A stretch of 64,000 nt of DNA, from positions 496,001-560,000 of the forward strand of contig NZ_BBRA01000001.1 in the NCBI RefSeq assembly GCF_000975035.1. The letters run 5' to 3'. The position numbers and the translations under genes were made by a program. Source of the stretch: Demequina flava. GTDB lineage: Bacteria > Actinomycetota > Actinomycetes > Actinomycetales > Demequinaceae. The notes below the pieces were generated by a model, which made no database searches, was not told the origin of the DNA, and saw nothing but the letters and a program-made list of their open reading frames with translations. Positions 35,785 to 59,529 of the stretch are shown here, piece by piece (positions within the stretch are counted from its first letter, which is position 1; each line of letters opens with the position of its first letter).

Positions 35785-38655
35785 TCAGGAACTGTCTGAG
35801 TAACGATGCGCGAGCACCGCGAGTTCCACGCGCGAACGCAATCCGAGCTTGCGGTACACACGCCCCAAGTGCACTTCAACAGTCCTGACGGACACGTACA
35901 GGCGCTCTGCCACGTCACGGTTGGCGTAGCCCTGTGCCACGAGCGTCGCGACCTCGCGCTCGCGATCAGTCAGGTCAACTGCCCATGCATCCGCGTCCTC
36001 GCGGGATGCGGAGTCCGTGCCCGCGGGGCTCACGTGCTCGGACACTTCGGTGGCACGTCGCATCGGCTCTGTCGCCCCTGAACTCAACGACGCGGCCTCT
36101 TCACGTACCAACGCAACCCAGGCATCGGCCCCTGACTCGTCAAACAAGTCCTGGGCGCTCAGCATGGCCGCCTCCGCCCGCTCCTGGAGTCCAACGCGGG
36201 CGAACGCTCGTCCCACGCTGAGTTCCGAACGCGCACGGTCGTAGGCGCTCGTGATGTCGCGCGCCGCAGCGGTTGCGGCCTCGACCCGCGACTCGATGTC
36301 TTCCTCGGTAGCGATGGCGAGTTCCGCACGTGACAGAACCACCGCCCGGGATAGCGGCGACAGCGTGCCGATGCGGGCGCGCAAGCGATGCAAGGCGCGG
36401 TGGGCCTCATGGTTCCTGCCAGCGGTCGCCCACTCCTCGACGATGTCGATTCCGGGCACCGTCAGCCCCGCAGCTGACTCGCGCAGCTCACGCTCAGCTG
36501 CAACCTCCAGCAACGTCGCGGCCTGAACGTGGTCGCGATCAAAGCTGGCCTCGATTGCCCGGTCCACGAGCAACCCCAGGCGGACCTGCGTGCTCGCGTG
36601 GCACGGCGATGTTTCCGTAAGCGCCTCTGAGGTTGCACTGACCGCACCGTCGCGGACAACGTCGATGCGGCGGCTCAGCGTCACACCAAGCCCCGACAAC
36701 ACCAGCCCAACGGGAAGGTGCTCGGCGGCCTCGCGGAGCGTCGAGGCGGCGCGCTCGACGTCGCCCGCACGGAACTCGACCAGTGCCTGCACGACTCGCA
36801 AATGCGCGACGACCAAAGGAGACGCAGCCCCCTCTGGTCCGTCGAACCACACGTCGCTACGTCTCACGGGAGACAGTTCTGCAACTGCACTCGCGAGGAG
36901 CCGGGCCGCGGCGTCTGGCTCATCGGCGTGCATGAGCGCCACTCCCCTGGCGACGGCACCCAGAGATTCGTCGTCGGGGACCACGGCTTGGGCGGGCAGG
37001 TCCACCTCACCCGTGGCTTCCGCCGCGTAGATCGATAGCCACGCCCGGGCGAGGCGCGTGCCGTCTCGATCACCGCATCGACCCCCTCCCACGAGTTCTC
37101 GAGCTTCCTCGAGGCGACGCCACGCCGCTGCCGTCGCACCGCGTTCCATGTGCAGGCAGGCGGCGGCGGATAGCGCGCGCGCCACGTTGGACCTCACGCG
37201 CCTGCCCGACTCGTCATCGGGGCCCGCGATCGCTTCGACGCGCGCCCGCTCCAGCACCTCGTCCGGCACGCGCCCGTCGGTCAACGTCAAGGTCACGACC
37301 AGACCAAGCAACGTGCGCGCGCGGGTGGTGGGATCGCCAGACCTCGCGGCATGTGGAAGCCAGTGAGCGGCGTCATGAATGTGGCCGCTGAGGACCGCCG
37401 CAATGCCTGACAACTCGCAAGCACGGACACGCTCGTCGCCGGTCGCGTGACCCACAGCCTCGCGGGCAATTGCGTGCGCCCACCGCGTGTCACCGTGGTG
37501 CAAGTGCCTGACCGCCAGGCGCAGCAGGTCGGGAACTACCGCAGGGTCGCCGGCGATCCGCGCAAGGGCCGTATGCCACGCCGCCACCTGGTGCTCCCCT
37601 GCCTCCTGGTGAGCACGCGCGAGCGCCTCGTGCGCCGTGGTGCGCTGCGCTAGCGAAGCCTGTCCATGAAGGAGCGACCGCAGTCGTTGGTCCTCGAAGC
37701 TGAACCCTCCGGCCAACAGCGTGAGGTGCTTGGCGACGGGGCCGGAGACGAAGTAGTTGACATCCTCCCCGGTCGCCGCGGTCAGTGTGTCGATCCGATC
37801 CACGACGGCGACGGCACCGATCAGGAGCGCCGCACGGTCGCGGTCGGTCAAGTCCTCGAGATGCGCGGCCAGGGCGTTCTTCACCGCTGGCACGACCGGG
37901 AGCGGGTCGGGGAGCATGGATGTTCCGGCCAACTGCTGGGGGCTCAGGCGCCGCGCGGTCTGCACGATGCAAGCGGGGTTGCCGGCCAGGCGGTAGGTCA
38001 GGGTCGCGGCCACGTGCGGCGCGACGGCTCCACAATGAGCCTCGGCCATGACACGTAGTGCGCCGTCCGTCGTCACGCCTGGCAGCTCTCGAATCTCCAC
38101 GTCGTGTGGCGGTCGCTCCCCAAACGGAGAGCGGCAGGCGGTCGCAAGTACAACGGTGGCGGAACCGTCATGGCCCAACAATTGGAGGACAGAATCGATC
38201 GCCTCACCGGAGAGCATGTCGGCGTCATCGATGAGGATCACGCACGTCTTGCCCGCGGCGACCTTGCGCAACTGCGCGGCGATGGCGGCCTCGAGCCCGC
38301 GCTCAACGGGAAGATCTTCTTCGCCAGTATCACTGAGTCGTTCCACTTGACTGAGTAGGGCAGCGAGAAACGCGTCGCGGCTACGGTCGCGATCCAGGCG
38401 CTCTGGCGAGACCCGCACAACCAAGGCGCGGGCCGATGCCGCGGTTGCCGTGAGCGCCTCAGCGAGGGTATCGAGCAGGGTCGAGCGCCCCATGCCGTGC
38501 TCCGCGGTCCACAGGATTGCCCCGGAGCCCTCGTCGACCCGTTCCAGGGCGTGCTCAATCTCCGTTTGGCGCGCGCCAGGTAGATCCGCGGCCGAACCGT
38601 CACCGCCGTGCGACGCTCCTCGCGCTACCAGCGGCACTTCCGTGGTCATTGCCAT
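35785..38655 (-). CDS. Large LuxR-family regulator with AAA-type ATPase domain
   Basis: 956 aa cytosolic regulator. N-terminal ATPase-like domain: AEHGMGRSTLLD replaces Walker A with Arg where Lys is usual; TCVILIDDADML is Walker B. A long alpha-helical middle (about 280-880) looks like TPR-type repeats rich in Ala/Arg. The C-terminal LuxR HTH (last 65 residues) is VDLTDREREVATLVAQGYANRDVAERLYVSVRTVEVHLGRVYRKLGLRSRVELAV. ATG 38655 is chosen for GAGAGGG 6 bases upstream; 38658 and 38649 are alternatives. It precedes two chitinase genes on the same strand and may regulate them (inference). Confidence 0.88.
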   Translation of the reverse strand: MAMTTEVPLVARGASHGGDGSAADLPGARQTEIEHALERVDEGSGAILWTAEHGMGRSTLLDTLAEALTATAASARALVVRVSPERLDRDRSRDAFLAALLSQVERLSDTGEEDLPVERGLEAAIAAQLRKVAAGKTCVILIDDADMLSGEAIDSVLQLLGHDGSATVVLATACRSPFGERPPHDVEIRELPGVTTDGALRVMAEAHCGAVAPHVAATLTYRLAGNPACIVQTARRLSPQQLAGTSMLPDPLPVVPAVKNALAAHLEDLTDRDRAALLIGAVAVVDRIDTLTAATGEDVNYFVSGPVAKHLTLLAGGFSFEDQRLRSLLHGQASLAQRTTAHEALARAHQEAGEHQVAAWHTALARIAGDPAVVPDLLRLAVRHLHHGDTRWAHAIAREAVGHATGDERVRACELSGIAAVLSGHIHDAAHWLPHAARSGDPTTRARTLLGLVVTLTLTDGRVPDEVLERARVEAIAGPDDESGRRVRSNVARALSAAACLHMERGATAAAWRRLEEARELVGGGRCGDRDGTRLARAWLSIYAAEATGEVDLPAQAVVPDDESLGAVARGVALMHADEPDAAARLLASAVAELSPVRRSDVWFDGPEGAASPLVVAHLRVVQALVEFRAGDVERAASTLREAAEHLPVGLVLSGLGVTLSRRIDVVRDGAVSATSEALTETSPCHASTQVRLGLLVDRAIEASFDRDHVQAATLLEVAAERELRESAAGLTVPGIDIVEEWATAGRNHEAHRALHRLRARIGTLSPLSRAVVLSRAELAIATEEDIESRVEAATAAARDITSAYDRARSELSVGRAFARVGLQERAEAAMLSAQDLFDESGADAWVALVREEAASLSSGATEPMRRATEVSEHVSPAGTDSASREDADAWAVDLTDREREVATLVAQGYANRDVAERLYVSVRTVEVHLGRVYRKLGLRSRVELAVLAHRYSDSS

Positions 38656-50044: not shown

Positions 50045-50593
50045 CTAGGCCGGACCCTCGGAACCACGGCGCTGCCCCTCCACGAAGGGCATCAGGCTCG
50101 ACCCGTCCCCCATCGCACCGTCCGCGATCACGCCCAGCGAACCGTCTTGGTGCAGCACCACTGCGTCAATGCCTGCCAATGAGCCGTGCCCAGATTGGCG
50201 GGCGGCGGTCTGGACGTCTGCCTCGGTGAGCCGGTGCCGGCGCAGCGACCGATGTTGCATGTCACCGCCGTAATACAGCAGTACCGGGGGCGAGTCGAGA
50301 AGGTGGCGCATGCGAGGGGACCGGGCACGCAGAGCCGCGAGCACCCACTGGATGACGACGAGAAGCACGAGCGCGACAACCGCTTGGGCGAGGCTCACGG
50401 TCTCCGCCGTGACGACACGCCCAAACGCGGAGCCCAACGTGACCGCAATCACGAAGTCCAGCGGCGTCATCTTGGCCATGGTGCGCGGACCCGTGCCGCG
50501 CAACAGGATGACCAACGTGAGGTAGCCGACAATGCCGACCAACAGCGTGTGCCAAATGGGGGTCCAGCCGGTCCAGAAGTAGCTCATGTCCAT
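50045..50593 (-). CDS. DUF421 (YetF/YcaP-like) membrane protein
   Basis: 182 aa. Three helices in the first 85 residues (HTLLVGIVGYLTLVILLRGTGPRTMAKMTPLDFVIAVTLGSAFG, then AQAVVALVLLVVIQWVLA) and a cytosolic DUF421 domain with DVQTAARQSGHGSLAGIDAVVLHQDGSLGVI. ATG 50593 (MDMSYFW) begins the conserved region. Function unknown; relatives affect sporulation or envelope stress in other bacteria. Confidence 0.9.
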   Translation of the reverse strand: MDMSYFWTGWTPIWHTLLVGIVGYLTLVILLRGTGPRTMAKMTPLDFVIAVTLGSAFGRVVTAETVSLAQAVVALVLLVVIQWVLAALRARSPRMRHLLDSPPVLLYYGGDMQHRSLRRHRLTEADVQTAARQSGHGSLAGIDAVVLHQDGSLGVIADGAMGDGSSLMPFVEGQRRGSEGPA

Positions 50594-50704
50594 CACGCCA
50601 GGCTCGCACGGTTGAAGGCGAGAGCCAACTGCCCAACGCTGAAGCGCACACATCGCGCGTACGATTCTCGTCGTGCCCACCCTCCGCGCTACTGAACTCA
50701 CCTG

Positions 50705-51619
50705 ATGCCACCGCGCTCACCTCTGCCTCAACGCGACGGAGTCGACGCCGCGTGGATACGCACCCCCGGCATCGGCCCGGATGAAGAATCGCCGTGGGCG
50801 ACAATGCGCGATTTCCTCATGGTCCGCCTGCCCGCCCGCGCGGACGTGCCCCGCATGCTGGAATCTGGCGACTTCGTGGACCAGGCCGGGCTGGCGTGGA
50901 CCGGCGATGAGCCCTACCGCCCGCACACGTTCGTGTGGTTTTACCGGCCGCTACGGCCCGAGGTCCCCGTCCCGTTCCCACTGGGGATTCTCGAACACAA
51001 CGACCGCTACGTCGTGGTCGACAAGCCCCATTTCATGGCGACGACGCCACGCGGCGCGCACGTCCAGGAGACCGCTCTCGTCAAAGCGAGACTGTTGCTG
51101 GACTTGCCGGAGCTGGCGCCGGCGCACCGCCTGGACCGACTCACCGCCGGAGTGTTGCTCCTGACCACGCGACGCGAGTACCGCGGAGCGTACGCCGGAG
51201 TTTTTCAGGAGCGCCGGGCCACCAAGACGTACGAGGCACTGGCTGCGTTTGACCCCGCCCTTGAGTTTCCACGCCGCGTCGTCAACCGCATCGAAAAGAC
51301 GCGAGAGAGTTTGCAGGCGCTCGTGGTCCCGGGCGAACCCAACGCCGAGACCCACATCGAGATTGTCGAAGTGCGCGGCGACGTGGCGCGCTACCGCCTG
51401 TCCCCCGTCACCGGGAAGACGCACCAGCTCCGTGTCCACATGGCGGGGCTGGGCATACCGATCCTGGGTGACTCGTTCTACCCGAGCGTCCGAGACGTCC
51501 CACCAAATGACTTCAGTTCGCCTTTGCAGTTGGTCGCGCGACGTCTGCAGTTCACGGACCCTATCGACCGGGAGCCACGAGACTACGAGAGTCAGTGCTC
51601 GCTCCAGTGGCCGGCATAG
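50705..51619 (+). CDS. RluA-family RNA pseudouridine synthase
   Basis: 304 aa. Catalytic Asp in HRLDRLTAGVLL. LEHNDRYVVVDKPHFMATTPRGAH is the preceding core strand, ATKTYEALAAF and GKTHQLRVHMAGLGIPILGDSFYP complete the fold. The N-terminal 90 residues lack a recognisable S4 domain. Probably modifies 23S rRNA or tRNA. Its 3' end lies near the frameshifted HEPN gene and ends 103 bases before its restored stop codon. Confidence 0.92.
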   Translation: MPPRSPLPQRDGVDAAWIRTPGIGPDEESPWATMRDFLMVRLPARADVPRMLESGDFVDQAGLAWTGDEPYRPHTFVWFYRPLRPEVPVPFPLGILEHNDRYVVVDKPHFMATTPRGAHVQETALVKARLLLDLPELAPAHRLDRLTAGVLLLTTRREYRGAYAGVFQERRATKTYEALAAFDPALEFPRRVVNRIEKTRESLQALVVPGEPNAETHIEIVEVRGDVARYRLSPVTGKTHQLRVHMAGLGIPILGDSFYPSVRDVPPNDFSSPLQLVARRLQFTDPIDREPRDYESQCSLQWPA

Positions 51620-51722
51620 CCCACGGGGAGCCTCGCTTGCCCAAGTACGCGAGACAGGAGGCCGGACCTCTCCAAGCTCCCGCATGAATCGACGCGTGCT
51701 GTCGTCACGCACCGCGCCGCAC

Positions 51723-52147
51723 CTACACCGCGCACGCAACAGTAATTGCGGCCGCAGCGTCGATCGTCCGACTGCGACATCTTGGGCCGTCGCAGTCGGA
51801 CGATCGAGATATGGATACTCCGTCGCATTGCGCACCTGCCGCATCCAATCGAAGTTCTCGAGCGATGAGTCATCGGCAAACACGGCCGCGGCGACCGCTG
51901 TGTTTCGGTGCGCGCCACCCACCGGGCGCACGCGTAGCCCCTCAGTTGCAAGAACCACTGCGACTGCTTTCCGCGCACCGTCATACGCAGCGGTGAACGC
52001 CATCCCCTGGCCGCCGGTCTCCGAGAGCCCTCGCGCCGTAATCACGTGTCGCTCCGCCGTCTGCACGACGGCAAGCGCGTGATCAAGATTCGGCTCGACG
52101 CGTTCCAGTCGACGGTTCGCCAACATCTGCTCGATCACATCAGACAT
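51723..52147 (-). pseudogene. HEPN-domain partner of the nucleotidyltransferase (SAV_6107-like), frameshifted near the C-terminus
   Basis: HEPN proteins are often RNase-like toxins of MNT-HEPN systems. The first 124 codons read well (MSDVIEQMLANRRLERVEP...), with the R-x2-RN-x2-EYP motif (RQVRNATEYP, Arg106/Asn107/Glu110) seen in SAV_6107-type HEPN proteins. Near 51800 the frame is lost. One extra base there would join it to a natural ending IDAAAAITVACAV with stop at 51723, giving 141 aa. As read, the frame runs on to 50951 over the antisense of the pseudouridine synthase gene, which is not credible protein. The break lies in a perfect inverted repeat. It overlaps the upstream gene by 8 bases. 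Confidence 0.75.
51761..51806. repeat. Perfect 18-bp inverted repeat at the HEPN frameshift
   Basis: Arms 51761-51778 (starting CGATCGTCCGACTG) and 51789-51806 are exactly complementary, with a 10-base spacer. The right arm falls where the HEPN frame breaks. Confidence 0.9.
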
Positions 52148-52733
52148 GCACGTCGCCGGTCAGCACGTCGACGATCGGGCGCGATTTGACCGTCGAGACG
52201 AAGGGCGACGGCTCGTCGGTCTCCCATTCGTCACGATCGAGTCGGGTCACATTCACCGGCACGTCGAGTCGATCGCCTGCTTCGCTCGCGATCGTCGACA
52301 GGGCACGACGCGGCACAGTTCCGATGACGAGCACATCAATATCGTTCGGAAACGCCCCACTCTCGCTCGCGCGACGCGCGGCCCACGAACCGTAGATCAA
52401 CACCTGGCCCGCGCCGTCGACCTCATCGAAGAGTTCGCGCAGTAAAGGAACTGGACCGTACGTGGCCGCGATGAGATCGCGCATGAGCGCAAAAAGCGGG
52501 TGGTCCTTGTTCGCCCGCACGAGTCTATTGCGTCCCTCGCGGCGATCGCGAAGCACACCGTTCTCAACCAAACGGCCCGACTCGCGATGGACGACCGGCC
52601 CACTCGCGCCCGTGCGCCGTCCGAGCTCAGATAGCGTGAACTCACGATCGGGGTGCCCCAGCACCTCTGCAAGGATCGCCCCGACCGCGTCTGAACGCAC
52701 GAACGGTGTCAACTGCGACGCAGAAGTCTTCAC
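52140..52733 (-). CDS. Winged-helix DNA-binding / minimal nucleotidyltransferase fusion (antitoxin-like)
   Basis: 197 aa from a GTG start. Residues about 14-75 form a winged HTH (GHPDREFTLSELGRRTGASGPVVHRESGRLVENGVL). Residues about 105-180 form an MNT-type nucleotidyltransferase, with GSW (115-117) and DID (131-133) as the catalytic GS...DxD pattern (LIYGSWAARRASESG). MNT proteins inactivate HEPN toxins by AMPylation in type VII systems; the HTH suggests autoregulation, and a palindrome lies directly upstream. It overlaps the HEPN gene by 8 bases. Confidence 0.85.
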   Translation of the reverse strand: MKTSASQLTPFVRSDAVGAILAEVLGHPDREFTLSELGRRTGASGPVVHRESGRLVENGVLRDRREGRNRLVRANKDHPLFALMRDLIAATYGPVPLLRELFDEVDGAGQVLIYGSWAARRASESGAFPNDIDVLVIGTVPRRALSTIASEAGDRLDVPVNVTRLDRDEWETDEPSPFVSTVKSRPIVDVLTGDVHV

Positions 52734-52735
52734 AA

Positions 52736-52757
52736 AACAGGAATATATCTTCCTGTT
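52736..52757. promoter_or_regulatory. Palindromic operator immediately upstream of the HTH-nucleotidyltransferase start
   Basis: AACAGGAA-TATATC-TTCCTGTT is a perfect 8-bp inverted repeat ending 2 bases before the GTG (52733), with an AT-rich centre that can serve as a -10 box. It implies a leaderless or near-leaderless transcript repressed by the gene's own HTH. Confidence 0.55.
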
Positions 52758-52783
52758 AAGGGAAGAGTCAAGGGGTCCTTCTC

Positions 52784-52806
52784 AGACGTTAAACCGGAAC
52801 TCCACC
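52784..52806 (-). repeat. ychF 3'-end-like repeat A (left edge of cassette 1)
   Basis: On the minus strand it codes for VVEFRFNV-stop, the standard YchF C-terminus, with no ychF body attached. Its 23 bases are identical to repeat B and similar to the resident ychF 3' end. Read as a left attachment-site remnant. Confidence 0.75.
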
Positions 52807-52913
52807 ACGTTAAGTAGTCGAATAACCTCAGGTTGAGAACGCGGCAAAGCCGTCTCACCCGATATGACGATAATCCGCTCATGCGTGACAGTAACGCCGG
52901 GGCAAGGCCATCG

Positions 52914-54242
52914 TCAGAACCTGGGACCGTCGTCCCGATCCCAATCGACGGGACCCAACGCGAGGGCAGAGTCGGTCCACTCGTCGGACGCTCCTGGCCA
53001 CGTCGTGGGCGGTTCGTCACCGGCATACCGATACTCTCCAAAGCGGCCGGTTGCTCCGACCCCGAGCACCCAGCCTGATGGCAAGCGACGCCACGCCCGC
53101 CACTTCTTCTTGTTGTTCGTCCTCTGAACGACGATGCCGTGCTGATCTGGTAAGCCCCATTTCGACACGGGGCTGATCACCATATCGGTGAGGTCATCCC
53201 AGAAAATCTCTCCCCGCCGTTCGTACCGGAGAGCCTGGGCAGTATGGATGAACTGTAGAGCGCGTTTGGAGCCGTCGAACTCTCTACGGTCGAGTTGAGC
53301 CCCTGTATCGTCAACCCCGACCTGGCCTGAGAAGATCTCCAGGTCGGCAAGCCGATCAGCTTCGAGTCGCTCGCGTCGGGTCACGTCGTGTCGGAAGTCG
53401 CGCATCTCCGACAGCGCTCCCCTGAATGTCGTTGCGCGCGCTACGTGGTGGTAGCGGCCAGTCAGTTCCTTCGCCCAGTTCACAGATCCGTGCAGCCCCG
53501 CGGAAACTCCCAAGCGTGCACGCAGTGGCATCCCTTCGTTTGTCCACAGGAGCCTCCTCAAGATCACTTCAGTGGCGGCGTAGAACGCCACTCCGTAGAG
53601 GTAAGGGAACATCGCGAACGGGAGCCACACTGAGAGCGCCAACGGGGCCAGTAGGTCTGGCCAGTCGAGCTCGTCCCACTTGTTGACGGTCTGGGCGGTG
53701 GTCCATGCGAGCAGGCCCAGTCCGATCAGCACGAGCGGGATCGAGAAACACCCGAGTACTCGCTGGCCCTTCTCGTCATGCTGAGCAAAGGCCGTCATCG
53801 CCGCGAGGAGAAAGATGACCGGTTGCGCGATCAGCTCGCCCCACAGGGGCAGCGATTCCAGGTTCAGGTAGAACAGGAACAGCGCGGACAGCGTGACGGT
53901 CTCGCGACGGACATGGTTGAGGATCTCAACGCCGGACTTCGCTCCTATGGACTTGAAGAGGAGCGGGAAGCCAACACCGACGAAGATGACGACGGTGTCC
54001 TTCAGTAGTTCCATCTGCCAAATGCCGATGAGCCATGCGAGCCAGACCCACAGTGCGACCCACACGATGAAGAGCCCAAAGACGCGGAGCACCGCCCATT
54101 TGAAGAGAGCGCGCGCAACAGATCTGAGAGAAGGCAGCACGACCTCGCGCCCTTTAGGGAGCACCATGGCGAGCACGACCAGCAACGCGATCAAGATCAC
54201 GGACGCAAGTTCACGGTTATTCAGCATGTTTGCCCAAGCCAC
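52914..54242 (-). CDS. Uncharacterised polytopic membrane protein of cassette 1
   Basis: 442 aa. Seven or eight hydrophobic helices in the first 225 residues (for example ELASVILIALLVVLAMVLP, VFGLFIVWVALWVWLAWLIG, DTVVIFVGVGFPLLF, ALFLFYLNLESLPLWG, PVIFLLAAMTAFA). A polar cytosolic C-terminal half (about 235-442) is Arg/Asp/Trp-rich. No known family recognised. Starts GTG 54242; ATG 54227 is an alternative. Divergent from the DUF4365 gene and inside two ychF-end repeats, so it may be the membrane effector of a defence system (inference). Confidence 0.7.
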   Translation of the reverse strand: MAWANMLNNRELASVILIALLVVLAMVLPKGREVVLPSLRSVARALFKWAVLRVFGLFIVWVALWVWLAWLIGIWQMELLKDTVVIFVGVGFPLLFKSIGAKSGVEILNHVRRETVTLSALFLFYLNLESLPLWGELIAQPVIFLLAAMTAFAQHDEKGQRVLGCFSIPLVLIGLGLLAWTTAQTVNKWDELDWPDLLAPLALSVWLPFAMFPYLYGVAFYAATEVILRRLLWTNEGMPLRARLGVSAGLHGSVNWAKELTGRYHHVARATTFRGALSEMRDFRHDVTRRERLEADRLADLEIFSGQVGVDDTGAQLDRREFDGSKRALQFIHTAQALRYERRGEIFWDDLTDMVISPVSKWGLPDQHGIVVQRTNNKKKWRAWRRLPSGWVLGVGATGRFGEYRYAGDEPPTTWPGASDEWTDSALALGPVDWDRDDGPRF

Positions 54243-54638
54243 TAGTCACTACGGGATTCGCTCAACCGTATCTAGACACACCGACACCAGTCGGATCTCT
54301 TGACGGGCATGCGGGACCGCTGAGGGCTGAGGCGACTCCGTAACCTGCCCAACGGTCGGGTTTGCGGTAGCAGCGCGTTGGGCTTGCGCGAATGCAAGGA
54401 GCCCAACCTTGCCTAAGGCCTGTCCTGCAGAATTTCAGCGTCGAGCGGTCGCACTAGTGCGCACTGAAGACTAGCGATGGCCACCGCTAGCAGAAGTTAG
54501 AGCGCAGATCTAAATACCATCACGATCCGTAGCGGAGTAACCTATGGCCGCTCTCGCACACCTAGGTTTGGAAGCAACGCCCGCAACGAAGTTCGTGTCA
54601 GCTCTCGCAGTTCCGCTGACGAATGAGATGATTTCGGG
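54243..54638. other. Divergent intergenic region of cassette 1 with a hairpin and two palindromes
   Basis: 396 bp without a gene between the two divergent cassette genes. It holds a hairpin at 54377-54407 (GTTGGGCTTGC paired with GCAAG-G-AGCCCAAC around a GCGAAT loop), the perfect palindrome CGCACTAGTGCG at 54450-54461, and a 20-bp near-perfect palindrome at 54471-54490 (9 of 10 pairs). These may be operators, a small RNA or recombination sites. Confidence 0.5.
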
Positions 54639-55658
54639 ATGACGGCCCCGCGGACCAAGCAGCTTCACAAGAACCACATCGCCGGCGAGCGCGGCGTGAG
54701 GTTGGTCCGCAGCAAACTACCCGACTACTGGGTGGTGCGCGAGCTTCAGCCCGACTACGGGCTCGACCTTCATGTCGAGGTGTTCGAGCCGGACGCGCTC
54801 GAGGCAGAGAGCGCGAACACCCTCGGCGAGCACTTCTTTGTCCAGGTAAAGGCAGTGGCGCGCGTCGAGACGGAGCTCGTTGCTGTTCGCAGTCGCATGA
54901 ACGTCGCGAAGTATGAGCCCGACCCGGGCTATGGAGACGAAGTCGAGATCGAGGTCGTGAAGTTCTCTCTCGACACCACAACCCTCCTTACCGTCGAGGC
55001 CATGGGTGCGGCACTACCAGTGGTGTTGTGCCTCGTGGACCTTTCGACGGAGACCATCTTTTATGTGTGCTTGAACGATTACGTAACCAAGTCGCTCTTG
55101 CCCTACAAGCCCAACTATGAGGACCAGGGATCAGTGACGGTGATGATCCCCTCATGGAATGTTCTGGACGCGGAGGACCCTAGCTTTGCCTACCTGTGGC
55201 TGCTCGCCAGGCGCAGCAAACTCTATGCAGCCTTCAACACATTTGGATACCAATATCACGAATTGATCAGGACCACAGAAGCCCTACCCGCGATCGTGCG
55301 GGACGAGCACCAACCGCAGATGGTGACGCTTTCTCCAGAACTCAGGGTGATGGCTCGCATCTTCCTCAGAGCCTCTCTTAGGCTGGCGATCTGGACGCCA
55401 GCTGGGCCGGGCTACTGGTCGCCGCTGGAGGATGTACAGCGCGCCCTTCAGTCTCTCGCGAATGATTTTCCACCGGAAGGATTACTGTCAGCAGACGAAG
55501 CCAAGAGATACATGCACCACCTGTTCGACACCTTCCGCCGGGCGGACAATCTTGGCCGTATGTATGAAGAGCTAATTCGAGAGTGGCGACTCCCCACGGC
55601 GTTGGCGGCGCGACTGGATTATCATGAAGAGAGCCACGACAACCCGCTGCAGAGCTGA
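54639..55658 (+). CDS. DUF4365-domain protein (putative PD-(D/E)XK-type nuclease) of cassette 1
   Basis: 339 aa. The N-terminal domain (about 10-170) fits DUF4365 (PF14280): Glu17 in GERG, then QPDYGLDLHVEVFE (Asp43, Glu47) and FFVQVKA (Gln69, Lys71), matching the D-E-QxK catalytic layout of restriction-endonuclease-like folds. The C-terminal half (about 180-339) is helical and unrecognised. Codon use is less GC-biased than in neighbours. DUF4365 proteins are frequent in defence islands. Divergent from the membrane protein gene. Confidence 0.8.
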   Translation: MTAPRTKQLHKNHIAGERGVRLVRSKLPDYWVVRELQPDYGLDLHVEVFEPDALEAESANTLGEHFFVQVKAVARVETELVAVRSRMNVAKYEPDPGYGDEVEIEVVKFSLDTTTLLTVEAMGAALPVVLCLVDLSTETIFYVCLNDYVTKSLLPYKPNYEDQGSVTVMIPSWNVLDAEDPSFAYLWLLARRSKLYAAFNTFGYQYHELIRTTEALPAIVRDEHQPQMVTLSPELRVMARIFLRASLRLAIWTPAGPGYWSPLEDVQRALQSLANDFPPEGLLSADEAKRYMHHLFDTFRRADNLGRMYEELIREWRLPTALAARLDYHEESHDNPLQS

Positions 55659-55936
55659 GCGCGACCGCAAGAGCGGATGACGCTTGCCCCGTTTAGCGAC
55701 GTTCTTCGTGCCGGAATCGCGCTAGACGTTAAACCGGAACTCCACCGAGTTCCGGCACATAGCAACCTCTGGATCGACAGGTGGCGCGTCCGCCGCGGTC
55801 GCCCTGCAGCTGCGGGGGCAGGAGCGCAAACCGCTTCAAGCTCAACCCCATAACTGCCAGCTGATGGGCCCCGCTTGAGACACGCGCGTAACGGACGTCC
55901 CTGAAGCATCTATGTCGACTTTAGTACCCTAGAGCT
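55659..55936. other. Spacer between cassettes 1 and 2
   Basis: 278 bp holding ychF-end repeat B and its flanking inverted repeats. A short minus-strand frame across it is composed of repeat and Pro/Arg-rich text and is not credible. The only likely signal is a promoter for the PycTM gene just before 55937 (TTTAGTACCCT). Confidence 0.5.
55724..55746 (-). repeat. ychF 3'-end-like repeat B (junction of cassettes 1 and 2)
   Basis: Identical over 23 bp to repeat A; encodes VEFRFNV-stop on the minus strand. The core CCGGAACTC (55734-55742) pairs with GAGTTCCGG (55747-55755), and an outer GTGCCGGAA (55708-55716) pairs with TTCCGGCAC (55750-55758). Such nested symmetry is typical of recombinase core sites. 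Confidence 0.75.
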
Positions 55937-56533
55937 ATGTTTCGAATGCCGTCCTGGCGCGGTGGACGACGGTCCACCGGAGGCCGTCCGCACGACGCGA
56001 CCACGCCCGTCAGCTCGCCCGAACCGAACCCGGATCACGCATGGAAGACACTCGCATTGATGAACGAGTGGATTCGCCACTCGGATGCGAAGGCCGGCGT
56101 AACGCTGGCCTTCACTGGCGTGATGGCAACGACGACGTTCAACCTCGCAAAGGACTTTGCTCCTCGGACTGCGCTGTTCGACACTCTCGTTGTCATGGCC
56201 TGCTTCTTGCTTCTCATCACCGGCGCTATGTGCGGATGGACGCTGACACCGAGAGTGAAGGACAAGGATGCAGATCGGGACACGATCAACAGGCTTTTCT
56301 TCGCCAGCATCGATCGAAATTTCAGGGGCAAGCGACAGGAGTACAGTGAGGTGCTCCATACGCTGACCTCTGATCCTGTTCAGCTGACGAAAGATCTCGC
56401 TGACCAGATACATGTCAATGCTCGGATTGCCACGGTCAAAGCAACCGCCGCAAAGTGGGCCATCCGGTGCGCTCTCGCTGCAGGAGCCGCGATCGCAGTC
56501 CTTGCCCTCGTTGTCGGCATCACGAACAGCTAG
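55937..56533 (+). CDS. pycTM: Pycsar-type effector, PycTM-like membrane protein
   Basis: 198 aa predicted membrane effector of a cyclic-pyrimidine anti-phage system (PF18967-like). The signature WIRHSDAKAG is at 45-54. Helices at about 54-71 and 82-101 follow, then a cytosolic part with QIHVNARIATVK (157-168) and a third helix (178-195). The pattern W-x3-SDAKAG plus late Q-x-x-x-N-x-x-I-x-x-x-K fits the family. Seven bases separate it from the cyclase gene. In known systems the cyclic nucleotide opens or assembles the effector, which damages the membrane. Function here is inferred from family plus context. Confidence 0.82.
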   Translation: MFRMPSWRGGRRSTGGRPHDATTPVSSPEPNPDHAWKTLALMNEWIRHSDAKAGVTLAFTGVMATTTFNLAKDFAPRTALFDTLVVMACFLLLITGAMCGWTLTPRVKDKDADRDTINRLFFASIDRNFRGKRQEYSEVLHTLTSDPVQLTKDLADQIHVNARIATVKATAAKWAIRCALAAGAAIAVLALVVGITNS

Positions 56534-56540
56534 GACGCAC

Positions 56541-57272
56541 ATGGACGGCAACTACAGACCATATGACTGGACGGCCAGCTCGGCCCGGATCAAAGCGATC
56601 CTGGATCAGCCGGCGGGAGCGTACGAGGAGGTAGACGGGCTCCCTGACCGGGACAAGCTCACGTTCTCCAACGGCTTCTACGGCATGTGCTCGGCGATCT
56701 TCATTGACATCCGAGACTCGTCCGGCCTGACGTCGAAGCACAAAAGGCCCGTCCTTGCGAAGATCTACCGGTCATTCATCTCGGAAATGGTCGCAGTCCT
56801 AAATTCCGACTCCTATGTGCGCGAGGTGAATATCGTCGGCGACTGCGTGTGGGCCTCCTACAAGACGACGCAGGTCAACCACATCGACGATGTGTTCGCT
56901 ACCGCAGCGCAGGCCAATACCCTCCTGAAGCTCCTCAACCACCACTACGAGAAGGCAGGGATCACCCAGCTCAGCATCGGCATAGGCGTCGAGTACGGGC
57001 GGGTCCTCATGATCAAGGCGGGGTACAGCGGCAGCACGATCAACGACGTCGTGTACATGGGCGACGTCGTCAACAGGGCAGCCCATCTGGCGCACCTGGC
57101 GGGGCGCGCTTGGGGATCGAGCCCGATCGTCGTCGGAGACGTCTTCTACTCGAACCTGAACGAGAACAATCAAGGCCTACTCCGACCGCAGTGGACGTCC
57201 GGCATCGGAACCGTGTACCAGGGAAATCCCATCATCCCGCCGATGGACGAGTGGCTCAGCTCCCTCAGTTGA
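56541..57272 (+). CDS. pycC: Pycsar-type class III nucleotidyl cyclase (PycC-like)
   Basis: 243 aa stand-alone cyclase without membrane or sensor domains. Metal-binding Asp56 in FIDIRDSSG and Asp101 in NIVGDCVWA; GIGVEYGRVLMIKAGYSGSTINDVVYMGDVVNRAAHLAHLA is the core typical of Pycsar cyclases. Its product would be cCMP or cUMP; specificity cannot be read by eye. ATG 56541 follows GCTAGGACG, 7 bases after the effector stop, so the pair is an operon. The longer in-frame extension to 56412 overlaps the effector gene. Its stop faces the second cyclase's stop 9 bases away. Confidence 0.85.
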   Translation: MDGNYRPYDWTASSARIKAILDQPAGAYEEVDGLPDRDKLTFSNGFYGMCSAIFIDIRDSSGLTSKHKRPVLAKIYRSFISEMVAVLNSDSYVREVNIVGDCVWASYKTTQVNHIDDVFATAAQANTLLKLLNHHYEKAGITQLSIGIGVEYGRVLMIKAGYSGSTINDVVYMGDVVNRAAHLAHLAGRAWGSSPIVVGDVFYSNLNENNQGLLRPQWTSGIGTVYQGNPIIPPMDEWLSSLS

Positions 57273-57281
57273 CATCCGGCG

Positions 57282-57977
57282 TCAGCCCGACCACCAGAAC
57301 GTCGACCCGTAGATCTGATAGCCCATGTCGGAGGTCCCCAGGTCAGTCCACATGTTCCGCTTCGGATTACCCCCGAGCTTCGAGGTCTCATTCAGCCTGC
57401 TGTAGACGTCGGCGGTGATGTAGGTCGGGTAACGAGGATCGAGCGCAGCCAACTTCGCCGCATTGTTTGCCGCGTTCCCAACCCACACCAAGTCATTGCT
57501 GCCTCGGATGCCTGTTCGGGCGACGAAAAGCTTCGAGGTATCGATGCCAACCCGTTGCTTGAGCACGAACGTGCTCTTCGGGTACTTCTCGGCGATCTTC
57601 GCTGCCACGATTTTCTTCGATGCCCAGTTGATCTGCAGCCCACACTTCGCGGCGTCGGTGTTCTTCGAGTCCCCGATGAACACACCCATGACACGGTCCC
57701 CGTCGTAGGCCGTGATGATGCCGCCCCGCGCTCGAATGATCTTCGCTGCACAGTAGAGGTAGTTCTTGTAGACCACCGCAGCGAACCAGTCCTTGTGACC
57801 CTTGACCATCTTCGTCGACGACGCAAGATCCGCGTAGAGGACGGTTGCGTCGAGCTCGACAGCAAGGTTCTTCAGCGGAAGGTCATCGGCGTCGGGCACT
57901 TTCTGGCCTGCGCGACGCTCCCACTGCTCGTCGACAGTCTTCTGGACGTACGCATCCAGTTCATCTTTCAGACTCAT
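57282..57977 (-). CDS. Second stand-alone class III nucleotidyl cyclase of cassette 2
   Basis: 231 aa. Catalytic Asp50 in VLYADLASSTKMV and Asp94 in AYDGDRVMGVF; DLVWVGNAANNAAKLAALD and the tail QIYGSTFWW also recall Pycsar cyclases. Residues 1-40 are helical and charged, with no receiver or membrane part. Strong GGAGGAG precedes the ATG. It converges on the PycC gene. No effector gene of its own is visible, so it might share PycTM, form a heterodimer, or signal to a host target. Confidence 0.82.
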   Translation of the reverse strand: MSLKDELDAYVQKTVDEQWERRAGQKVPDADDLPLKNLAVELDATVLYADLASSTKMVKGHKDWFAAVVYKNYLYCAAKIIRARGGIITAYDGDRVMGVFIGDSKNTDAAKCGLQINWASKKIVAAKIAEKYPKSTFVLKQRVGIDTSKLFVARTGIRGSNDLVWVGNAANNAAKLAALDPRYPTYITADVYSRLNETSKLGGNPKRNMWTDLGTSDMGYQIYGSTFWWSG

Positions 57978-58093
57978 GTCGAGGCTCCTCCCCCACGCTC
58001 ACTCTAACCGTTCGCTTGATCAGCTTGGCCGCTGGGCAGTGTCAAAGGGTCGCAGCAGTAGGTCTGTTCGCAACCTGTCACATACGCCAGAGG

Positions 58094-58120
58094 TTATACG
58101 GCGAAACGGAACTCCACGAC
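58094..58120 (-). repeat. Resident ychF 3' end, repeat C (right edge of cassette 2)
   Basis: Minus strand codes VVEFRFAV-stop. It shares CGGAACTCCAC (58107-58117) and scattered flanking bases with repeats A and B. Interpreted as the attachment site restored at the right edge. Confidence 0.65.
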
Positions 58121-59179
58121 GTCACCATCGACCATCGTGTAGTCCTTGCCCTCCATACGCACCTTGCCGGCCGCCTTGGCGTCGTTCATGGTGCCGTGCT
58201 CCATGAGGTCGTCGAAGGACACGACTTCAGCCTTAATGAAGCCCTTCTCGAAGTCGGTGTGGATGACTCCGGCGGCCTGCGGCGCGGTCCAACCCTTGCG
58301 GATGGTCCACGCGCGCGCTTCCTTAGGGCCGGCGGTGAGGTAGGTCTGCAGGCCCAGCGTGTCGAATCCGATGTGCGCGAGCTGGTCAAGGCCGGACTCG
58401 GTCTGGCCGGTGGACTCGAGCATTTCGCGGGCTTCGGCGTCGTCGAGTTCGATGAGCTCGGACTCGAACTTGGCGTCGAGGAAGATCGCCTTCGCGGGCG
58501 CCACGAGCGCTTCGAGGCGCGCCTTCTTGTCTTCGTCCATCAGGCCCGCATCGTCGGTGTTGAACACGTAGATGAAGGGCTTGATGGTGAGCAGGTTGAA
58601 CTCACGGAGTTCTGCGGTGTCGATGCCAGCTGCGGCCGCTCCGGCGAACAGGGTCTGCCCGGCCTCGAGGACTTCCTTGGCCTGCGACACTGCGGCCAGC
58701 TGATCCGCCGAGCCCTTCTTGATCTTGACTTCCTTCTCCAGGCGCGGAAGGACCTTCTCGATGGTCTGCAGGTCCGCGAGGATCAGTTCGGTGGCGATGG
58801 TTTCGAGGTCGCCGGCCTCGTCGGTGGAGCCGTCGACGCGGGTCACGTCTGAGTCGTCAAACGCACGTGTCACCTGGCAAATCGCGTCAGCTTCGCGGAT
58901 GTTCGCGAGGAACGCGTTGCCCAGGCCCTCTCCCTCGGATGCGCCCTTCACGATGCCCGCGATGTCGACGAACGACACCGTCGCGGGGATCTCCTTCTCC
59001 GAGGAGAACACCTCGGCAAGCTTGCCCAGGCGTGCGTCAGGCAGCGGCACGACGCCGACGTTGGGCTCGATCGTCGCGAACGGGTAGTTCGCGGCGAGCA
59101 CCTCAGCGCGGGTCAGAGCATTGAACAGGGTGGACTTGCCGACGTTGGGCAGTCCGACGATTCCGATAGTTAGAGCCAC
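58094..59179 (-). CDS. ychF: Redox-regulated ATPase YchF
   Basis: 361 aa conserved P-loop protein (OBG/YchF class), an ATPase linked to ribosomes and stress. VGLPNVGKSTLFNALTRA is the P-loop, DIAGIVKGASEGEGLGNAFLANIRE is G3, then a helical domain, YVFNTDDAG, and the C-terminal TGS domain ending VVEFRFAV. Start GTG 59179 gives the standard VALTIGIVG beginning; a TTG three codons upstream is an alternative. The last codons differ from the two remnant copies (FNV against FAV), as if its 3' end were replaced by an integrating element. It is the resident integration target. Confidence 0.95.
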   Translation of the reverse strand: MALTIGIVGLPNVGKSTLFNALTRAEVLAANYPFATIEPNVGVVPLPDARLGKLAEVFSSEKEIPATVSFVDIAGIVKGASEGEGLGNAFLANIREADAICQVTRAFDDSDVTRVDGSTDEAGDLETIATELILADLQTIEKVLPRLEKEVKIKKGSADQLAAVSQAKEVLEAGQTLFAGAAAAGIDTAELREFNLLTIKPFIYVFNTDDAGLMDEDKKARLEALVAPAKAIFLDAKFESELIELDDAEAREMLESTGQTESGLDQLAHIGFDTLGLQTYLTAGPKEARAWTIRKGWTAPQAAGVIHTDFEKGFIKAEVVSFDDLMEHGTMNDAKAAGKVRMEGKDYTMVDGDVVEFRFAV

Positions 59180-59283
59180 GGGCGACAAGTCTAGTTCGTA
59201 CGGGGACGCCTTGCGTGCAGAGGGCCGATGCTGGGGTCACCCGTTGCCGCACACTCACGCGGCGCACGGCGTACAGTCGGGCT

Positions 59284-59529
59284 ATGAGCGGTCTTGAAGA
59301 GATCTTCAATCCGGGCGCCGAGGAGACGATCGACTACCTCGCGCGCGAGAAGGTCTTGCCCGCCCCCGCGCCTGTCGCGGGCGCGCCCATTCGGGACGCT
59401 GACGGAGCCGAGTTGTACATTCCTCCCCTGCCCACCGAGGCAGTGATGCCCGAGCCGCCACGGCGACCCGAGCATCGGCCCGATGCCGAAGGCACCCGCA
59501 CAGACGACGACGGGCCGAGCGCAACCTAA
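59284..59529 (+). CDS. Small conserved-type hypothetical protein
   Basis: 81 aa. Begins MSGLEEIFNPGAEETIDYL, resembling the start of small actinobacterial DUF6191-like proteins (EELFNPG), then a Pro/Ala-rich, disordered tail. The identification is weak. ATG 59284 is favoured over 59215 because the conserved part begins there. Contains one GGCCGATGC copy and is followed by another at 59535. Confidence 0.5.
   Translation: MSGLEEIFNPGAEETIDYLAREKVLPAPAPVAGAPIRDADGAELYIPPLPTEAVMPEPPRRPEHRPDAEGTRTDDDGPSAT

Follow-up and report, generated by a model that had tools for sequence, protein, structure and literature searches.

A stack of integrase-less cassettes behind ychF in Demequina flava and a probable attachment site at their joints

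The DNA analysed here (64,000 nucleotides, referred to as the window) belongs to the 2.55 Mb genome of Demequina flava and contains ychF together with a series of sites that repeat its last codons (…VEFRFNV-stop). Repeat B (55724–55751) has two relatives within positions 38000–64000, namely 58096–58123 (A) and 52784–52811 (C). A search of 50500–59500 for tandem repeats found none. The features of this region are as follows, with strand where one applies:

58094–59188, minus strand: ychF (redox-regulated ATPase YchF), the target gene (TIGR00092, E 2e-124; PF06071)
58090–58130, minus strand: site A, the live 3′ end of ychF, central GT at 58117/58116
55745–58116: cassette 1 (Pycsar), 2,372 bp between central GTs
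57282–57977, minus strand: second PycC cyclase (PADLOC PDLC00766, E 2e-96; differing best PycC model)
56541–57272, plus strand: first PycC cyclase (PADLOC PDLC02368, E 2e-96)
55937–56533, plus strand: PycTM effector (PADLOC PycTM, E 1e-35; PF18967)
55720–55758, minus strand: site B, a full site at the joint of cassettes 1 and 2, central GT at 55745/55744
52805–55744: cassette 2, 2,940 bp
54639–55658, plus strand: DUF4365-domain protein (PF14280, E 4e-13)
52914–54242, minus strand: unmatched protein, N-terminal half hydrophobic as judged by eye from the translation
52780–52822, minus strand: site C, the joint of cassettes 2 and 3, central GT at 52805/52804
51690–52804: cassette 3, PDC-M05 type (low end approximate, distal site unrecognisable)
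52140–52733, minus strand: PDC-M05A candidate defence protein (PADLOC, E 1e-47)
50951–52147, minus strand: PDC-M05B-like frame, matching within residues 5–121 and continuing past the cassette end into the flank
50705–51619, plus strand: pseudouridine synthase (PF00849), the conserved flank past the array

Cassette 1 is a predicted Pycsar defence system: by profile it encodes two PycC cyclases and one PycTM effector, with a cyclase adjoining the effector. The two cyclases, which have different best models, flank or accompany the single effector within 55937–57977. In cassette 2, the 442-residue protein encoded at 52914–54242 has no match in Pfam, NCBIfam or PADLOC and adjoins the DUF4365 gene (52914–55658), so the pair forms a possible two-gene system. 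Cassette 3 shows 66–69% identity to stretches of six other loci (L039, L051, L053, L059, L063, L064). We count this last piece beyond C as a cassette as well, since its alignment with cassettes of five Demequina loci (L046, L051, L053, L059, L064), themselves bounded by sites, begins at the site. The loci of 27 of 40 relatives also have the pseudouridine synthase flank, past either the array or the end of ychF. Searches with Pfam, NCBIfam, PADLOC and integrase queries gave no integrase, relaxase or replication match in the window cassettes. As predicted from these matches, the window holds three integrase-less cassettes, of Pycsar, DUF4365 and PDC-M05 type.

An earlier note on this DNA had described two nested inverted repeats around B, and both are present and perfect:

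55734–55742 CCGGAACTC and 55747–55755 GAGTTCCGG: inner inverted repeat, 9 bp, 4-base spacer
55708–55716 GTGCCGGAA and 55750–55758 TTCCGGCAC: outer inverted repeat, 9 bp, 33-base spacer

The symmetry is indeed missing from A. Around the central GT, site B pairs at 9 of 14 positions, all nine consecutive, whereas the pairs of site A are scattered (5/14); site C, with its degenerate left arm (CTACTTAAC), also pairs at 5 of 14. Dyad pairing across 199 distal sites peaks exactly between the G and the T of GGTG, with 50% pairing over 12 positions against a trial-centre mean of 25% (sd 9%) and 44% and 42% at the next best centres. Because these sites were picked by pattern, this centre is support rather than proof. 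The consensus dyad is imperfect and the arm of site B renders it perfect. The inner repeat of B shares the dyad centre of the 199 sites (55745/55744). For the outer repeat, a role in the recombinase site is unsupported. Its centre lies 11.5 bp away from the dyad centre at the probable crossover point, and its arm at 55708–55716 lies 29–37 bases from that centre, inside cassette 2. At the geometry of the outer pair the 199 sites pair at 29% and slid versions at 17–32%, so there is no excess, and an inverted copy of the outer left arm, at this position or nearby, occurs at none of the 199 other sites.

To place these sites in context, the DNA up to 20 kb downstream of ychF was surveyed in 40 relatives (39 of the 43 other genomes of the genus and one of a sister genus; some contigs are shorter). 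Together with the window and a second contig of genome G043, this gave 42 array loci (778 kb). The pattern CGGAAYGYGGTSGA, which covers left arm and core, has 55 matches, every one on the ychF strand (0 on the opposite strand), and at least one match occurs in 26 of the 42 loci. Exactly EFRFNV-stop follows 36 of these 55 left-arm-defined sites. Most site counts rest on wobble-allowing patterns, by which counts of EFRFNV-stop are inflated; the CGGAAYGYGGTSGA count avoids this bias. Variation among the sites is greatest at third codon positions (mean 0.85 bits vs 0.44 at first and 0.25 at second positions, stop codon excluded). A 33-nt pattern with up to 3 mismatches matched in 34 of 44 genomes, many of the matches being the ychF end itself, and the reversed-pattern control gave no match. 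These matches all lie at ychF except for those on G043:C6, a contig that begins inside an array, and one in G018 (contig C5). This stray site (L109 3966–3998, minus strand; G018:C5:211965–211997) lies away from ychF: an open frame ends there in …KDRDAVEFRFNV and a stop codon, followed by a typical cassette start, and it is possibly a secondary insertion site.

Demequina arrays behind ychF reach nine cassettes; the longest (L066; G024, Demequina soli) packs these into about 7.8 kb. Beyond the genus, an exact 29-nt pattern identified at least 119 stretches in at least 35 actinobacterial genera among 84,980 species searched, and 48 of the 119 listed stretches, each examined over at most 8 kb, include ychF. 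All loci together contain 220 cassettes (199 unique) with a median length of 1.19 kb; the wider counts use wobble patterns built on Demequina, and some Demequina loci fall in both sets. Cassettes beginning near TAGCGTTATTGAC, exact or with 1–2 changes, recur (C029, C040, C053, C057 and others) in Demequina, Acidipropionibacterium, Gordonia, Knoellia, Brachybacterium, Yaniella and Cryobacterium. The expected jump in divergence at the ychF end is weak and we do not use it as support: the tail is mildly more diverged than the gene (0.32 vs 0.20 at third positions; higher in 33 of 51 pairs), and upstream windows of ychF reach 0.40.

For an overview of the cargo, one ORF per cassette was chosen by a GC3 rule from the 199 unique cassettes, with the window excluded. 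The resulting 194 ORFs were reduced to 151 by dropping near-duplicates. Scans of 148 of these 151 non-redundant ORFs gave matches to 161 Pfam and 63 PADLOC families, none of them dominant; these are counts of families matched, not of proteins with a PADLOC match. The arrangement in the window apparently carries predicted anti-phage defence genes and belongs to a kind of cassette stacking found in many actinobacteria.

One cassette of 5.17 kb allowed the joint to be mapped. It contains a regulator, a cation-translocating P-type ATPase and further frames (names from matching plasmid records) and is 99.7–99.8% identical in Galactobacter valiniphilus, Microbacterium mitrae and Rarobacter faecitabidus, members of three families (Micrococcaceae, Microbacteriaceae, Rarobacteraceae). 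Its copies are:

L153, 1453–6623
L178, minus strand
L194, 1661–6830

Such near-identity indicates recent spread between families. The cassette lies directly at the ychF end in M. mitrae and R. faecitabidus; the G. valiniphilus stretch does not include ychF. At the outer end, the three-way identity extends through GGT in the distal core and is lost in the right arms that follow. Since GAGTTC itself is common to nearly all sites, the joint is narrowed down by the base that follows GGT. The limit at the inner end is blurred by the shared ychF codons. A joint after GGT also fits the cassette pairs C006/C032 and C013/C047. Two pairs are less clean, C172/C175 differing one base before GGT and C121/C171 within the left arm, and these early differences may reflect later mutation. 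Apart from these two pairs, the change of identity falls at the central dinucleotide of the dyad, as for an attachment site. The window's Pycsar cassette begins at site A with CGTTTCGCCGTATAACCTCTGGCGT, the first 25 shared bases of the 5.17-kb cassette, and the two have the left arm TATGTGCCGGAA in common. Plasmid records match parts of both (36 for the 5.17-kb and 21 for the Pycsar cassette), but none covers 80% of either. The right end shared by the two occurs in none of the viral contigs.

The most likely recombinase is a large serine integrase. P0004, a 454-residue protein of this type (PF00239 + PF07508), is encoded on a viral contig with a site about 25 bp before it. Among 71 serine-recombinase loci with relatives of P0004, seven have a 21/21 match to GGTSGARTTYMGNTTYAAYGT on the opposite strand, about 32–60 bp ahead of the start, while the remaining 64 score 13–15 of 21; one of the seven perfect-site loci is the query's own, and the identities at the others are 42–60%. 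Twelve of the 14 top-scoring loci for P0004 have ychF on their contig, and in all 12 the integrase lies within 12.5 kb downstream of it (G604 8.3, G121 10.6, G105 12.5, G640 11.8, G328 11.0, G422 0.04, G605 0.05, G536 0.2, G543 0.07, G703 3.3, G646 8.7 and G508 10.7 kb). The other two are G382, where the genes are on different contigs, and the viral contig, whose examined part shows no ychF. Of six weaker relatives examined for ychF, four could be placed, with G515 at ychF and G676, G740 and G484 far from it; in G636 and G735 integrase and ychF are on different contigs.

Two arrangements recur. The integrase stands either at the far end beside a full site or behind ychF in the same reading direction. 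In the latter arrangement, the integrase match begins 40–185 bp behind the ychF match (L240, L284, L286, L291), and the ychF tail of L286, read by hand, is …VEFRHGGTS. Four viral contigs contain the core, three of them with an adjoining integrase (L314 53%, L316 65% and the query itself); in the fourth it is ychF. Against the cassette consensus, the left arm of L316 agrees at 21 of 26 bases, and those of the other integrases at just 11–17 of 26. A cognate integrase thus stands beside the site at 7 of 71 loci and in L314 and L316, all outside Demequina. The integrase-bearing element at ychF in L277 also encodes a MobA-type relaxase and a D5-like protein, and the ychF element of L274 gives a weak terminase-small-subunit match below Pfam's cut-off. 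As the earlier note had anticipated, then, relatives do bear integrating elements at ychF whose site takes in the bases of B. Related integrases of the Microbacterium phages SuMoo, Caron, UtzChips and Percival and of Mycobacterium phage Kumao were also considered; these phages show no ychF-type site.

Within Demequina we found no intact integrase with a site. Relatives of P0004 occur in 19 of 44 genomes, with a fragment in G006 the only one at ychF, and a resident serine recombinase was rejected as a candidate, as PF00239 proteins, present in 25 of 44 genomes, have no listed place at ychF. Movement in this genus therefore either relies on visiting elements or is past. The G006 fragment is a 35-residue piece beside a degenerate site and the sole integrase fragment in the 42 array loci; the YchF of this genome is the closest to that of the window (97%). 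Longer remnants, of about 55 integrase codons, persist next to the left arm in related elements of Brachybacterium (L147) and Brevibacterium (L190), whose main frame presumably encodes a protein resembling oleate hydratase. Because integrase 5′ remnants stand beside left arms, the small cassettes are plausibly elements that lost the integrase body. The integrase-like hits in L133, lying 7.3 kb away from the site, and in L182, a C-terminal part near the site, do not have this arrangement of a 5′ end beside the site. A P0004 search of the three loci with the 5.17-kb cassette (L153, L178, L194) found no integrase.

Based on these comparisons, B is very probably an attachment site of a large-serine-integrase system that inserts cassettes into the final codons of ychF and stacks them there. 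A circular cassette would carry one site, consisting of a left arm close to GTTCGGCTACGGAAC (here TATGTGCCGGAACTC), the core GYGGT and the right arm GAGTTCMGVTTYAAYGTVTAG, which spells EFRFNV-stop. The integrase would cut the central GT of this site and of the ychF end, so that ychF afterwards ends in the right arm of the incoming cassette, preserving the protein and regenerating the target. The next site outward would arise where the left arm of the incoming cassette meets the right arm that it has displaced, and repeated insertion would stack the cassettes with the newest adjoining ychF. B would then consist of the left arm of the Pycsar cassette and the right arm of the DUF4365 cassette, giving the full dyad, and A of the left half of ychF and the Pycsar right arm. 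The integrase-less cassettes of the window would have been moved in trans by an integrase from related or phage-like elements. The earlier description of B as a complete recombinase core and of A as a half site agrees with this model. The left half of A is not decayed, being ychF coding sequence, as expected for attL, with a right half from the Pycsar cassette, and B is the joint between two cassettes rather than a spared remnant of ychF. Stacking is the weak step. Serine integrases are described, in excerpts of PMC3783163, as joining attP with attB and other pairings only with a helper factor, and serial insertion at an occupied ychF end (attL) therefore needs a further assumption, for instance that the end restored by the incoming arm may approximate attB.

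We consider it unlikely, though it accounts for part of the data, that the arrays are stacks of dead insertions in which each cassette is a decayed integrase-bearing element and none moves as a cassette today. Such decay would fit the 5′ integrase pieces that adjoin sites in L037, L147 and L190, the missing outer site of cassette 3 and the lack of an intact integrase at ychF in the genus. It is at odds with the near-identity of the integrase-less 5.17-kb cassette in three families with different neighbours and with other cassettes that recur at different array positions while keeping their own arms. From these near-identical and recurring cassettes, recent movement without an integrase of their own seems to occur.

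Insertion by a tyrosine recombinase, either of the integron type (IntI) or the host XerC/XerD, is very improbable. Small cassettes in tandem, each with a single site, and a target at one end would suit it, and PF00589 proteins occur in all 44 genomes of the genus. However, the sites adjoin serine integrases, and both the joint and the dyad indicate the central GT. No listed PF00589 place is at ychF (weak matches are not all listed), and 22 in-frame queries found no tyrosine recombinase in the 42 array loci; queries derived from the minus strand may be antisense. In the control for this search, 565 of 638 query–target pairs among integrase loci matched.

That the symmetry of B arose by chance must be weighed for the two repeats separately, as perfect 9-bp repeats are common at such composition. 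The window contains one with a 4-base spacer (0.47 expected), 12 with spacers of 0–10 (mean 6.4, sd 3.5, in 30 simulated first-order Markov windows) and 87 with spacers of 0–60. Judged by count alone, the inner repeat is not significant; with repeats this common, context alone can decide. Chance is the best explanation for the outer repeat. The centre of the inner repeat coincides with the dyad centre of 199 related sites and with the mapped joint, and a chance origin for it is hard to credit. Least probable of all is a role unrelated to recombination, as a terminator of transcription or an RNA hairpin downstream of the DUF4365 gene: 66 nt of the minus strand at site B do fold (−26 kcal/mol, z −2.6), but no T-run terminator was detected at 55600–56000, and identical bases return as cassette boundaries in many genomes, which contradicts this reading.

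Returning to serine-integrase insertion, we think it somewhat more probable than the opposite that the ychF end of actinobacteria as a whole anchors a serine-recombinase counterpart of the integron, with a target that renews itself. Minimal, integrase-less cassettes, some bearing genes for defence or metal resistance, would be captured there and carried from family to family by integrases acting in trans, and every arrival would rewrite the last codons of a conserved gene. The ychF end is a simple search handle for accessory genes, including candidate defence genes, and integrating vectors could draw on natural serine integrases whose genomic target is conserved. The model also raises the question whether attL acts as the next attB once the incoming arm has restored the ychF end.

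Like integron arrays, the ychF arrays extend from a single anchor as head-to-tail series of small cassettes, each with its own site, and if the model is true these cassettes are small enough for comparison with integron cassettes. Integrons use folded attC sites. The arrays differ from them in that the recombinase is of the serine rather than the tyrosine type, the target lies inside a protein gene, and no resident integrase gene, in particular no IntI-type tyrosine integrase, adjoins the array. The elements of L277 and L274 are like the serine-integrase prophages and integrative mobilizable elements of actinobacteria, from which the window cassettes differ in having no integrase, relaxase or replication match. 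In this they are like CIME or hitcher elements, which have sites but no recombinase and depend on a helper, although the known examples are larger and few per site. Among the papers listed by full-text searches, outside subscription journals and preprints, we found no description of an actinobacterial ychF site; excerpts of PMC8637289 and PMC10383233 place pneumococcal prophages near ychF.

The closest known systems are SCC and ECC. In these, too, elements bounded by direct repeats are placed at the 3′ end of a conserved gene by large serine recombinases, and tandem and recombinase-less forms of SCC exist. At ychF the boundary sites likewise repeat the last codons of the target, in 36 of 55 cases exactly. 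For ECC, excerpts of PMC6222049 report dyad symmetry in the circular and outer sites and a size of 32 kb for ECC::cat, compared with cassettes of about 1.2 kb here. The hosts described here are actinobacteria, and the target is ychF instead of rlmH. Neither ccrAB nor ccrC is present, the 35-residue integrase fragment standing alone in the 42 array loci, and the helper clade, judged by its domains, is a single phage-type integrase (PF00239 + PF07508) in place of the CcrA/CcrB pair. Since target gene and recombinase set differ, the ychF array is not an SCC. If our model is true, it would represent a further cassette-chromosome system beside SCC and ECC, present across many actinobacterial genera.
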